The notes under the pieces are model-generated. The model saw only the letters and a list, made by a program, of their open reading frames with translations. It did not search any database and was not told the DNA's origin. Shown piece by piece: positions 7,745-54,280 of a stretch of DNA of 54,369 bases; the stretch's first letter is position 1; every line of letters starts with the position of its first letter. Both the position numbers and the translations under genes were made by a program. The stretch is from Candidatus Moranbacteria bacterium RIFOXYB1_FULL_43_19 (GTDB lineage: Bacteria; Patescibacteriota; Minisyncoccia; Moranbacterales; UBA11712): the NCBI GenBank assembly GCA_001784875.1, contig MFSH01000009.1:1-54369 (forward strand), given 5' to 3'.

Positions 7745-7967
7745 TGCGCGCACCAGGGTTTTCACCCCGCACCAATTCTAGTTTTGTGCGCTGTGCAGGG
7801 ATCGAACCTGCGACCGTTGGCTTAAGAGGCCACTGCTCTACCAGCTGAGCTAACAGCGCGTATTACCTTGATGTCTAGTGCCAAGTCAAACTGAATTGAT
7901 GCGGGGCAGGCCTGGTAGGGACCGTTTTCTTAAGAGGCAACTGCTCTATCAGCTGAGCTATGCGCGC
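7745..7967 (-). pseudogene. Interrupted tRNA-Lys(CTT) copy enclosing an intact tRNA-Lys
   Basis: The minus-strand 5' part (7967-7907) has acceptor GCGCGCA, a normal D-arm, a CTCTTAA anticodon loop and the T-stem arm CCAGG. The 3' part (7764-7745) has CCTGG and TGCGCGC plus discriminator A. Acceptor and T-stem arms pair perfectly across the gap. Between them lies a 142-nt insert (7906-7765) bounded by CCCCGCATCAATTC and GAATTGGTGCGGGG, which are complementary apart from one G-T pair. The anticodon stem is weak and no TTC T-loop is left, so this copy is probably nonfunctional; an intron-like arrangement is the alternative. Confidence 0.6.
7787..7859 (-). tRNA. tRNA-Lys(CTT)
   Basis: This is a complete cloverleaf: acceptor GCGCTGT/ACAGCGC, D-arm GCTC/GAGC, anticodon loop CTCTTAA (anticodon CTT), T-arm GCAGG/CCTGC with TTCGATC, discriminator A. 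It lies inside the insert of the interrupted tRNA-Lys copy, on the same strand. Confidence 0.93.
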
Positions 7968-16283: not shown

Positions 16284-16471
16284 TACCGCTACGGGGAATC
16301 GAACCCCGGTTAACGGACGTGCCCCGCACCAATTTTAGTAGCCCCTAGGGGAATCGAACCCCTGTTAACGGATTGAAAACCCGTTGTCCTAACCACTAGA
16401 CGAAGGGGCCTTGTGGAATTGGTGCGGGGTTGAACAAAAACCCGCTGTCCTGACCACTAGACGATAGCGGC
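16284..16471 (-). pseudogene. Interrupted tRNA-Glu-like copy enclosing an intact tRNA-Glu
   Basis: The minus-strand 5' part (16471-16430) has acceptor GCCGCTA, D-arm GTCT/GGAC and half an anticodon arm (GCGGG). The 3' part (16321-16284) has TCCGT, the T-arm CGGGG/CCCCG with TTCGATT, acceptor TAGCGGT and discriminator A. The halves pair across the gap. The 108-nt insert (16429-16322) interrupts the anticodon loop and is bounded by CCCCGCACCAATT and its exact complement AATTGGTGCGGGG. The exact loop of a joined product cannot be fixed. It could be a dead copy or an intron-containing gene. Confidence 0.6.
16339..16410 (-). tRNA. tRNA-Glu(TTC)
   Basis: This is a complete cloverleaf with acceptor GGCCCCT/AGGGGCT (G1-T72 pair), D-arm GTCT/GGAC, anticodon loop TTTTCAA (anticodon TTC) and T-arm GGGG/CCCC with TTCGATT. 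It lies inside the insert of the interrupted tRNA-Glu copy, on the same strand. Confidence 0.92.
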
Positions 16472-27757: not shown

Positions 27758-27774
27758 ATTTTTTGGTTATTTTT

Positions 27775-27861
27775 CGGAGGCGAGAGGATTCGAACCTCTG
27801 GAACCCTTGCGGGTTCTCCAGTTTTCAAGACTGGTGCAATCGTCCACTCTGCCACGCCTCC
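27775..27861 (-). tRNA. tRNA-Ser(TGA)
   Basis: Class II tRNA with acceptor GGAGGCG/CGCCTCC, anticodon stem CCAGT/ACTGG with loop CTTGAAA (anticodon TGA), long variable arm GAACCCGCAAGGGTTC and T-arm with TTCGAAT; discriminator G. Confidence 0.95.
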
Positions 27862-27867
27862 ATATTT

Positions 27868-27911
27868 GGTGCGGGACAAGCTGCCGCTTTCGTCCACTCA
27901 GCCATCCCACC
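27868..27911 (-). pseudogene. Truncated tRNA-Ser-like 5' fragment
   Basis: GGTGGGATGGCTGAGTGGAC matches the 5' end and D-arm of a tRNA-Ser, but after about 30 nt it runs into GTCCCGCACC, the same word that bounds the nested tRNA-Lys and tRNA-Glu inserts. The ends could pair (GGTGGGA with TCCCGCACC, with a bulge). Confidence 0.5.
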
Positions 27912-27919
27912 ATTATTTT

Positions 27920-28046
27920 CGGAGAGGGCGGGATTCGAACGTCGCTTCGCGCCTTGAAACCCTGCGGTTTCAATACTTCCGCCGCGGGAAAACTCACGTT
28001 TTCTCGATCCCTTTCCTGTTCGAATCCACCCTGGAATATCTACTAA
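27920..28046 (-). pseudogene. Degenerate tRNA-Ser-like 3' fragment with inverted T-arm
   Basis: The part at 27920-27983 reads on the minus strand like a tRNA-Ser 3' half (GTTCGAATCCCGCCCTCTCC). An inverted T-arm-like copy (GTTCGAATCCACCCT on the + strand) lies at 28019-28033, with GC-rich hairpin DNA between. No complete cloverleaf can be built. Confidence 0.45.
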
Positions 28047-28055
28047 AGAAAATTT

Positions 28056-52593: not shown

Positions 52594-53107
52594 CAAGGTG
52601 AAAGACGCGACTGGAATAGTTTGTAATAGGAATATTACCGATTATTCTGGTCGTGTTTTCTTTGTCCCCGCCAGATTTATCCGCTTTGGGCGGAGGCGAG
52701 CAGGCAAAATAAAACACGAAGAACTTTGACAATTGAATCCTTACTAATTTGCCAGCATATGAATTAGTAGGGTACACCCCCACGCCAATCCCGGCAACAT
52801 TTATTGCATTGCACTGGACGGAAAGCGAAGCGGCTTCGCCTTTCGTCTATGAATAATTAACGCGTGTAGTTTGGATTGGTGTGGGGGTAAACAATCGCAA
52901 ATTTTTGTGGTTGTCCTGGTCCCGTCGCCCTCGGGCGACGGGAAAGTGCCCGCCTTCGCTCTTCGGAGCTACGGCGAGGCAAGTGCTAAGAGTCTATTCA
53001 AAATCTAAATTAATTTAGATTCAAGTTACATTATAGAGTTCTCCGGAATTTTCATCAAAAAAGTTCCGGGTGCTCAAATTATCCCGATCTTTGGATCGCG
53101 GATAATT
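52594..53107 (+). other. Structured rRNA leader hairpins
   Basis: No gene is seen. Hairpins include 52742-52769 (TACTAATT/AATTAGTA), a 16-bp stem 52776-52791 with 52873-52888 (ACCCCCACGCCAATCC and its G-U complement), 52921-52942 (CCCGTCGCCC/GGGCGACGGG), 52952-52980 (GCCTTCGC/GCGAGGC), 53043-53069 (CCGGAA/TTCCGG), and 53077-53107 just before the 16S. Some may be RNase III processing stems. Confidence 0.6.
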
Positions 53108-53153: not shown

Positions 53154-53173
53154 GATAAGGCATGCAAGTCGAT

Positions 53174-53481
53174 CGCCACACCATTCAGCTTTTGTGGTAA
53201 AATAATAACATGTATTATGTTTATCTAATCAAAAGCAAAAAACTTCAGAAGATTTATACCGGCTACACAACTGATCTAAGAAAAAGAATGCAAACTCATA
53301 ACTCCGGAAAATCGGATTATACGAGCAGAGGTATTCCTTGGAACTTAGTCTACTATGAGGCATACGCATCAGAAGAAGATGCAAAAAAACGTGAAAATAG
53401 TCTGAAGTTAAGAAGTAAAGCATACGCACAGTTAAGAAAGAGAATTGAAAAGTCTTCAAATGAAAGCTGAATGGTGTGGCG
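53174..53481 (+). mobile_element. 16S V1 (helix 6) insertion with GIY-YIG ORF
   Basis: A perfect 17-bp inverted pair, 53174-53190 and 53465-53481 (CGCCACACCATTCAGCT), extends helix 6; the loop of about 274 nt is essentially the GIY-YIG gene. No group I or II intron core was recognised. The architecture resembles rRNA intervening sequences (IVS). Confidence 0.7.
53210..53470 (+). CDS. GIY-YIG endonuclease in 16S helix 6
   Basis: This 86-aa protein is a minimal GIY-YIG nuclease of the UvrC N-terminal/UPF0213 type. MYYVYLIKSKKLQKIYTGYT holds the GIY and YIG strands. The catalytic arginine is R24 in TDLRKRMQTHN, and a conserved glutamate lies in KKRENSLK (E62). It is encoded in the loop of the extended V1 hairpin, with its TGA stop inside the 3' arm. 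It may be a homing nuclease that spreads the insert or a passenger. No RBS better than GGTAAAATAATAAC is seen. Confidence 0.88.
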   Translation: MYYVYLIKSKKLQKIYTGYTTDLRKRMQTHNSGKSDYTSRGIPWNLVYYEAYASEEDAKKRENSLKLRSKAYAQLRKRIEKSSNES

Positions 53482-53715
53482 AGGCAAACGGGTTAGTAAT
53501 GCATAGGAACGTACCCTCGAGTCTCGAATAATCCCTCGAAAGGGGGAATAATGCGAGATAGTTCTCTTCGGAGTAAAGCCCCGACGCAAGTCGGGACGCT
53601 TGAGGAGCGGCCTGTGTCCTATCAGCTTGTTGGCGGGGTAAAGGCCCACCAAGGCTATGACGGGTAGGGGATGTGAGAGCATGATCCCCAACATTGGGAC
53701 TGAGACACTGCCCAA

Positions 53716-53746
<31 letters not shown>

Positions 53747-53842
53747 CGGCAATGGGCGAAAGCCTGACCGAGCGACGCCGCGTGAAGGATGAAGGCCTTC
53801 GGGTTGTAAACTTCTTTTGCAAGGGAAGAAACCGTGTTCAGC

Positions 53843-54280
53843 ACGGAGAATCCAATTACACTAAAACTTTAGGAATTGTGTTGAGAAAAAAATATTTTTG
53901 AGGGGGGTATATTATGTATGATCATGTCATGGAGGTAAAGGGTGAGGTAACGTCAGAAACTTTCAAGAAATTAGATGGAAGTTTGTCCCTGGCGGATTTA
54001 TACCAAATCGGAACGTGTGAAGTAGCTGACGGCCTGCTGGCAATAATAGAAGGTCGTCACAAGAGGTTGAAAGTCTTGTTCAAAGGTGTGGAGAGTTCTC
54101 ACAAAGCGCAGGATGCTGTACTTCATGCCTTTGACGACTTCAAGAACTCCAAGATTCCATGAAGATTTAGTCTTCTGGGCAAGATCATTAACTTTAATAA
54201 AGCGAGATTGCGAACCTGCATTTCTCGCAATCTCAACTCAATTCCTAAAGAAAAAAGTGTCATTGAAGATTCCGTGTTGG
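53843..54280 (+). mobile_element. 16S V3 (helix 17) insertion with 82-aa ORF
   Basis: Helix 17 arms CACGGAGAATC (from 53842) and GATTCCGTG (from 54268) pair with a 2-nt bulge. Inside them a second 19-nt pair (53867-53885 and 54232-54250, one mismatch) lengthens the stem. The roughly 350-nt loop holds the 82-aa gene and a 10-bp hairpin at 54204-54234. Confidence 0.65.
53914..54162 (+). CDS. 82-aa protein encoded in 16S helix 17 insert
   Basis: GAGGGGGGT ends 6 nt before the ATG, a strong RBS. The protein (MYDHVMEVKGEVTSETFKKL and onward) is mixed alpha/beta and has no GIY-YIG, LAGLIDADG or HNH motif that I can see. It is not recognised. Its placement in the loop of an rRNA helix parallels the GIY-YIG gene and suggests an IVS-associated protein. 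Confidence 0.65.
   Translation: MYDHVMEVKGEVTSETFKKLDGSLSLADLYQIGTCEVADGLLAIIEGRHKRLKVLFKGVESSHKAQDAVLHAFDDFKNSKIP

Follow-up and report, generated by a model that had tools for sequence, protein, structure and literature searches.

The window analysed here is a 54,369-nucleotide stretch of Candidatus Moranbacteria bacterium RIFOXYB1_FULL_43_19, whose 1.0-Mb genome is denoted G000. On the reverse strand of the window, positions 16284–16471 hold a native tRNA-Glu gene, now a pseudogene, whose anticodon loop is split; direct reading places its 5′ part at 16430–16471 and its 3′ part at 16284–16321. The intervening 108 bp (16322–16429) form a fold-back element with tRNA cargo, denoted E, which is recognised by its exact inverted ends of 13 nt, here called arms, and by a family of other copies. 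Word search and arm pairing locate the arms CCCCGCACCAATT (16417–16429, 5′ on the tRNA strand) and AATTGGTGCGGGG (16322–16334, 3′ on the tRNA strand), which on direct reading are exact complements. Enclosed by them is an intact tRNA-Glu (TTC) at 16338–16410, matched by a tRNA model at 65 bits and lying 6 nt from one arm and 3 nt from the other. Directly outside the arms are TTCAA (16430–16434), of the TTCA/TTTA type that is the commonest left flank in the E family, and CACG (16318–16321), of the common CAAG/CAGG/CACG type of right flank. In the predicted RNA fold of the locus, a 13-bp stem encloses the inner tRNA (z −4.4). A preliminary description of this DNA had reported an intact tRNA-Glu nested in an interrupted tRNA-Glu gene, with the insert in the anticodon loop and with exactly complementary ends, and reading of 16284–16471 bears out each of these points.

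The other case in that description, a tRNA-Lys with an insert in the T-loop, is likewise real. The native tRNA-Lys(CTT) gene (7745–7967, reverse strand), which has an intact syntenic orthologue in G001, a sister species of the same genus, is split by an E-type element whose arms were found by word search at 7765–7777 and 7894–7906; within it lies an intact tRNA-Lys(CTT) at 7786–7859. A decayed case involving tRNA-Ser occupies 27774–27911 on the same strand and consists of a 5′ half (27877–27911), one arm (27864–27876) and an intact tRNA-Ser(TGA) (27774–27862), the other arm being lost. Further tRNA-Ser remnants are present at 27880–28050, between intact Ser-GCT and Ser-TGA genes.

Relationship of outer and inner genes

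The outer halves are indeed those of a tRNA-Glu, as had been supposed: they match the intact tRNA-Glu(TTC) of G001 at 68 of 69 aligned positions. About 100 nt of upstream sequence and the downstream flank are common to G000 and G002, a second sister species, where the same gene has undergone a separate, different invasion. Because the outer gene is intact in G001 and the outer gene and its flanks are common to G002, sequence comparison identifies it as the native gene and the insert as the later arrival. Similar agreement with G001 is found for the outer Ala-CGC (67/67), Lys-CTT (66/70) and Ser-GGA (78/81) genes, and the outer Pro-CGG gene equals the intact Pro gene of G002 (62/62). The inner tRNAs match these same natives at just 72–94% of aligned positions. 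Full-length matches nearest to the inner Glu gene, at 90%, come from another genus of the family and from another family, so that the inner gene probably originated in a relative.

These values bear on local tandem duplication, in which the inner gene would have been copied from the outer one during palindrome insertion and have diverged afterwards. At several GIY-YIG or hairpin cases (Ile, Ser-GCT and Glu in G002; Pro in G043) the intact rescue tRNA and the broken half do not differ in sequence, which suggests local duplication at those loci and means that sequence divergence is not required. At the Glu locus of the window, however, identity to the native over aligned positions is 99% for the dead outer gene and 94% for the functional inner one, the acceptor stem of the inner gene differs, and the inner Ala gene reaches 73%. 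A pseudogene would be expected to diverge at least as fast as a functional copy, and tandem duplication is a very unlikely account of E.

The junctions indicate what insertion did to the outer genes. At the Ala locus CGCA, comprising the anticodon and base 37, is replaced by TTCAC...CAAG; in the T-loop cases TTCG gives way to CCTG or CCCG ahead of the element and to TGAA behind it; and the outer Lys gene has lost its anticodon-stem pairing. Since anticodons are lost at junctions and the Lys stem has decayed, neither splicing nor trans-joining could restore the outer genes; judged from these sequences, the outer tRNA is dead and is not spliced. Removal of the insert as an intron would leave the Ala gene with its anticodon missing, and no intron family matched the window at gathering threshold. 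The earlier suggestion that the outer halves might be joined as RNA fares no better, and an interrupted yet functional outer tRNA is unlikely. We find it scarcely credible that the outer halves are kept together by the 13-bp stem and joined once the inner tRNA has been excised, in the manner of archaeal split tRNAs. That stem is predicted around the inner tRNA with the z score given above, and the outer acceptor strands remain complementary, but the anticodon is deleted at the Ala junctions and altered at the Glu junctions, the outer Lys stems are decayed, the Pro and Ser halves are partly lost, and nesting is serial.

Recurrence of nested tRNA genes

Nearly all genomes compared are drafts or MAGs, G000 was covered as selected stretches, and genomes were picked as relatives or as carriers of the arm word, so that the frequencies given here are not estimates for the phylum. 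Among the 41 tRNA genes found in G000, at least nine lie between both arms, nearly all within a broken tRNA gene of the same isotype and strand, and some are more deeply nested. The fully paired cases are Lys-CTT, Glu-TTC, Ser-GGA, Leu-CAG, Gly-CCC, Leu-GAG, Phe-GAA, Ala-CGC and Leu-TAG, the last with a poor outer remnant; Pro-CGG and Ser-TGA keep one arm, and Leu-TAA is nested without E-type arms. For roughly a quarter of the tRNA genes of G000, a copy brought in by an element appears to have taken over, nested in the remains of the original. What had been counted as two independent cases does recur independently, but the number was too low.

The search of related genomes that had been proposed finds the word next to tRNAs elsewhere too. 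Arms of the E type surround a cognate nested tRNA in G006, G015, G043, G239 and a Moranbacteria MAG, all Patescibacteria, and also in an Endomicrobiia MAG. An artefact of metagenome assembly could be suspected from the fact that the genomes are mostly drafts or MAGs. It is the least probable of all the explanations considered, given that orthologous nested Leu-TAG and Pro-CGG genes occur in both G000 and G001 and that identical architecture is found in several genomes across families and phyla.

The identity of inner and outer isotype, noted before for the Lys and Glu loci, holds in the further G000 cases and in other genomes. In the ten pairs in which the outer anticodon is still readable, it always equals the inner one (Lys, Ser-GGA, Leu-CAG, Gly, Leu-GAG and Phe in G000; Ser-CGA, Leu-GAG, Arg-CCT and Glu-CTC in other genomes). 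For outer halves without an anticodon, some isotypes were assigned by reading the body and flanks; automatic calls were confounded by adjoining intact tRNAs (Lys was called His) or, at L181 and L182 (Val), by lost anticodons, and were replaced by reading. Every recognisable outer gene shares its strand with the inner gene: sense scores are 35–75 and antisense scores about 20–25 in clear cases, and the sense score is far above the antisense score in most cases.

Some loci record several rounds. The Leu-GAG locus of G000 contains three generations, namely Leu0 (the gene that is intact in G001, here in pieces), Leu1 and Leu2. In a genome of another family (L181), three Ala genes are nested and the two outer ones are broken at the identical point of the anticodon loop.

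Dead outer Leu genes of G000 (L072 560–830, L083 320–710) carry short complete hairpins of the CCCCGCA...TGCGGGG type in their D- and T-loops, an accumulation which suggests that, even in the absence of selection, tRNA loops are hot spots of insertion. Separately, a tRNA-Phe gene of G001 (L097 2336–2705) appears to have an insert of about 300 nt in its anticodon loop that is group I intron-like by eye. Several tRNAs (L134, L129 and L131 in G002; L145; L158) are followed downstream by a conserved sequence, AGGAAAGGGGTCGGGAAAACGTGAGTTTTCCCG...GAGCGAAGCGACG, of about 90 nt; it ends at a T-loop 3′ half, and on its left it looks like a tRNA 3′ half in inverted orientation.

A family of fold-back elements

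With up to two mismatches, the arm word occurs nine times in the window against 1.5 expected, more often than chance would give, and 113 times in G000 (64 + 49) against 10 (5 + 5) for a reversed control. In G000 the copies pair as inverted arms, mostly about 63–150 bp apart. The arms are of the form CCCCNCACCAATT...AATTGGTGNGGGG, frequently flanked by TTYA at one end and by CARG at the opposite end; these flanks contain no consistent direct repeat, and at the Ala site 4 nt are replaced. Many plain copies measure 109–111 bp and have a central hairpin near GCGAAGCCGCTTCGC. One such member without a tRNA lies in the window at 52778–52886 (no strand assigned), with arms CCCCACGCCAATC and GATTGGTGTGGGG and centre GCGAAGCGGCTTCGC. 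Terminal inverted arms, many dispersed copies and empty sites place E in a fold-back (MITE-like) family; Rfam contains no family matching E at gathering threshold.

The comparison covered 79 arm pairs, each arm having been selected for its own resemblance to the consensus. Both arms have changed at 50 positions, and complementarity is retained at 47 of them; since some of the pairs overlap or are related copies, this is to be read as a strong trend and not as 47 events. Shuffled arm pairs gave a mean of 6.3 complementary double changes and a maximum of 16. On this covariation, the fold-back itself is a conserved feature.

A wide phylum scan found the exact arms in E-type spacing in 2 of 380 genomes, so that this exact version is rare; other arm versions occur, as at Arg-CCT and Thr-GGT in G001. 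In the G000 stretches examined, no copy with exact 13-nt arms was seen to enclose a transposase that would make it autonomous. Phage was considered as a vector and set aside, the one viral contig found carrying a plain element only. Elsewhere in G000 (C14:34218–34509; L048, L017), several plain fold-backs with differing arms overlap or are nested in a cluster, and in G025 a plain member of the family occupies the helix 39 region of a 16S rRNA gene (L185 535–639).

GIY-YIG and RAYT genes

E itself encodes no GIY-YIG ORF, but relatives with similar arms do. In the window, helix 6 of the 16S rRNA gene contains an insert (53172–53483, forward strand) that we propose to be an ORF-bearing relative of E: a GIY-YIG ORF (53210–53470) lies within 21-nt inverted arms, ATCGCCACACCATTCAGCTTT and AAAGCTGAATGGTGTGGCGAG, and the nearest solved relatives of its protein are UPF0213 proteins. 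The same 16S gene has a second insert of about 440 nt in the helix 17 region (about 53835–54270), whose 82-aa ORF (53914–54162) matched no Pfam or NCBIfam family. Three further GIY-YIG ORFs of G000 (L195–L197) are contained in fold-backs that end in CCC...GGG and are flanked by TTCA/TTTA, ORFs between arms of the CCCCGTCAAATAA type have TTCA/TTTA flanks, and in G006 (L204) the ORF is bounded by CCCCTCACCACTTTT and AAGTGGTGAGGGG, arms close to the E subtypes CCCCTCACCAATT. Overall, members with an ORF and members with a tRNA have similar but not identical arms. At one G002 locus (L211, C38) a GIY-YIG ORF lies between long inverted arms (CAGCCCCAGTTTTGAGA); RNase P RNA was suggested as its target by the adjoining motif GAGGAAAGTCCGG, without confirmation by Rfam.

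The GIY-YIG genes of these relatives are embedded in or beside targets, both tRNAs and 16S helix 6. All six non-UvrC single-domain GIY-YIG genes of G001 and five of the seven in G002 have a tRNA no more than 150 nt away (P = 2e-10 and 1e-7, respectively, assuming uniform placement). At one Pro (L200), one Ser (L202) and two Trp loci (L224, L198) the order is broken 5′ half, ORF and intact cognate tRNA, which lies only a few bases from the stop codon of the ORF; a broken 3′ half follows in some, so that Pro-TGG and Trp loci display the complete series. Because GIY-YIG ORFs occur both within fold-backs resembling E and next to tRNAs inside broken cognates, this family is the leading candidate for an autonomous partner of E, and we infer that a GIY-YIG enzyme would cut the target and mobilise E.

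RAYT (Y1) transposases are an alternative mobiliser, the fold-backs then being REP/REPIN-like palindromes and the GIY-YIG genes further cargo. Seven Y1_Tnp genes are present in G000, and E is palindromic and high-copy, with recurrent short flanks and no clear target duplication. On the other hand, the palindromes beside the G000 RAYT genes differ from the E arms in sequence, a search for E arms at RAYT ends found none, and it is GIY-YIG ORFs, not RAYTs, that occur within arms and beside tRNAs. Mobilisation by RAYTs is, in our assessment, unlikely.

A model of insertion and rescue

It is likely, in our judgement, that E is a homing- or REP-like fold-back mobile element that carries a rescue tRNA and replaces a native tRNA by a nested foreign cognate. 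Larger members of the family would encode a single-domain, UPF0213-like GIY-YIG nuclease, which may make the cut and move E. Insertion would occur in loops of structured-RNA genes, chiefly the D-, anticodon and T-loops of tRNAs, and some members would carry a promoterless tRNA. An insertion into a single-copy tRNA gene would destroy it, and the only surviving descendants would be those whose cargo has the same anticodon and the sense direction, transcribed from the promoter of the broken gene. The native tRNA would end up replaced by a foreign one nested in its remains, possibly through several rounds at one locus, and cargo inserted anywhere else would remain unexpressed and degenerate.

Cargo tRNAs start 0–34 nt from the nearest arm, and the arms are constant. 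This leaves no room for a promoter between arm and cargo, so that expression must come from outside; most simply, the inner tRNA probably uses the promoter of the broken gene. We infer that lethality of the other outcomes is the filter behind the cognate rule. Such a filter would account for cognate identity and strand, for the occurrence of tRNA-bearing copies in tRNAs and of the plain G000 copies elsewhere. By itself it does not explain how tRNAs enter between the arms.

Alternatively, homology could direct insertion to the cognate tRNA through double-strand-break repair or single-strand annealing involving the cargo or co-carried flanks, the cognate rule then reflecting targeting and not survival. 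No tRNA-bearing copy was seen clearly outside tRNAs, while plain G000 copies lie there; the outer 3′ half at the L224 Trp locus, not the 5′ half, matches the inner gene, as in co-conversion; and the successive Ala insertions of L181 share an identical anticodon-loop position. Yet inner and outer genes are only about 69–93% alike, with short exact matches, the loss of silent promoterless cargo elsewhere would equally leave no copies outside tRNAs, and no guide is known. Directed targeting is a possibility that we consider rather improbable, and survival of cognate rescue is preferred.

A more far-reaching version of this rescue model is natural cleave-and-rescue, in which GIY-YIG fold-backs would break host tRNA genes anticodon by anticodon and supply the replacements, making the host dependent on them, while repeated rounds would rewrite tRNA sets and move genes between lineages. 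We put this forward tentatively, as an idea with real but lesser chances than the model of E itself.

Comparison with known systems

tRNA genes are usually regarded as vertically inherited and almost untouchable; the replacements in G000 appear recognisable and datable, and E-type nesting offers a concrete route for horizontal tRNA replacement. It would also account for unusual tRNA remnants in Patescibacteria and for the small GIY-YIG genes that adjoin tRNAs there, and provide a natural analogue of engineered cleave-and-rescue drives.

The rRNA genes of CPR bacteria contain insertions, including non-intron ones that encode GIY-YIG proteins, which sit at the tips or bases of rRNA stem-loops and were judged not to spread by homing (PMC11270868). 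Like the 16S helix 6 insert of the window, they are inserts with a GIY-YIG ORF that belong to neither the group I nor the group II class, in similar hosts. The main text of that report mentions no tRNA, inverted or palindromic ends, or hairpins, whereas E has arms, tRNA targets and rescue cargo. SegB, a free-standing GIY-YIG homing endonuclease of T4-type phages, adjoins tRNA genes, cleaves tRNA-containing sequence and moves tRNA DNA by recombination (PMC13096335 and its reference Brok-Volchanskaya 2008). The placement of a GIY-YIG gene beside tRNA genes recalls the ORF-bearing relatives of E, but SegB belongs to phage and has neither fold-back arms nor a nested cognate rescue copy inside a tRNA gene. 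Dada DNA transposons insert within specific tRNA genes of eukaryotes (PMC3706591). They share with E insertion inside tRNA genes, and differ in being eukaryotic, in using a DDE transposase, in their target duplications of 6–7 bp and in their multicopy target genes, with no rescue tRNA described.

REP and REPIN sequences are short palindromes present in many copies and presumably mobilised in trans by RAYT (PMC3116915, PMC2817692). Unlike those of E, REP arms are hairpins of their own, and the RAYT-adjoining palindromes seen here differ; among the papers searched, we did not find tRNA cargo nested in tRNA genes described for REP/REPIN elements. Archaeal split and intron-bearing tRNA genes have complementary sequences at the break and are joined as RNA (PMC3218864). 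The Glu locus likewise presents a broken tRNA with complementary break sequences, but the outer genes described here are dead, with anticodons lost. Among the open-licence papers searched, none was found to describe a whole cognate tRNA that travels in a fold-back and lies nested in the gene broken by it. Integrative elements use tRNA genes as att sites, inserting in the anticodon or T-loop region with tRNA function kept; they are large, employ a tyrosine integrase and restore just the 3′ part of the same gene. E, in contrast, is 108 bp long without an integrase, and places a whole foreign tRNA between short arms.
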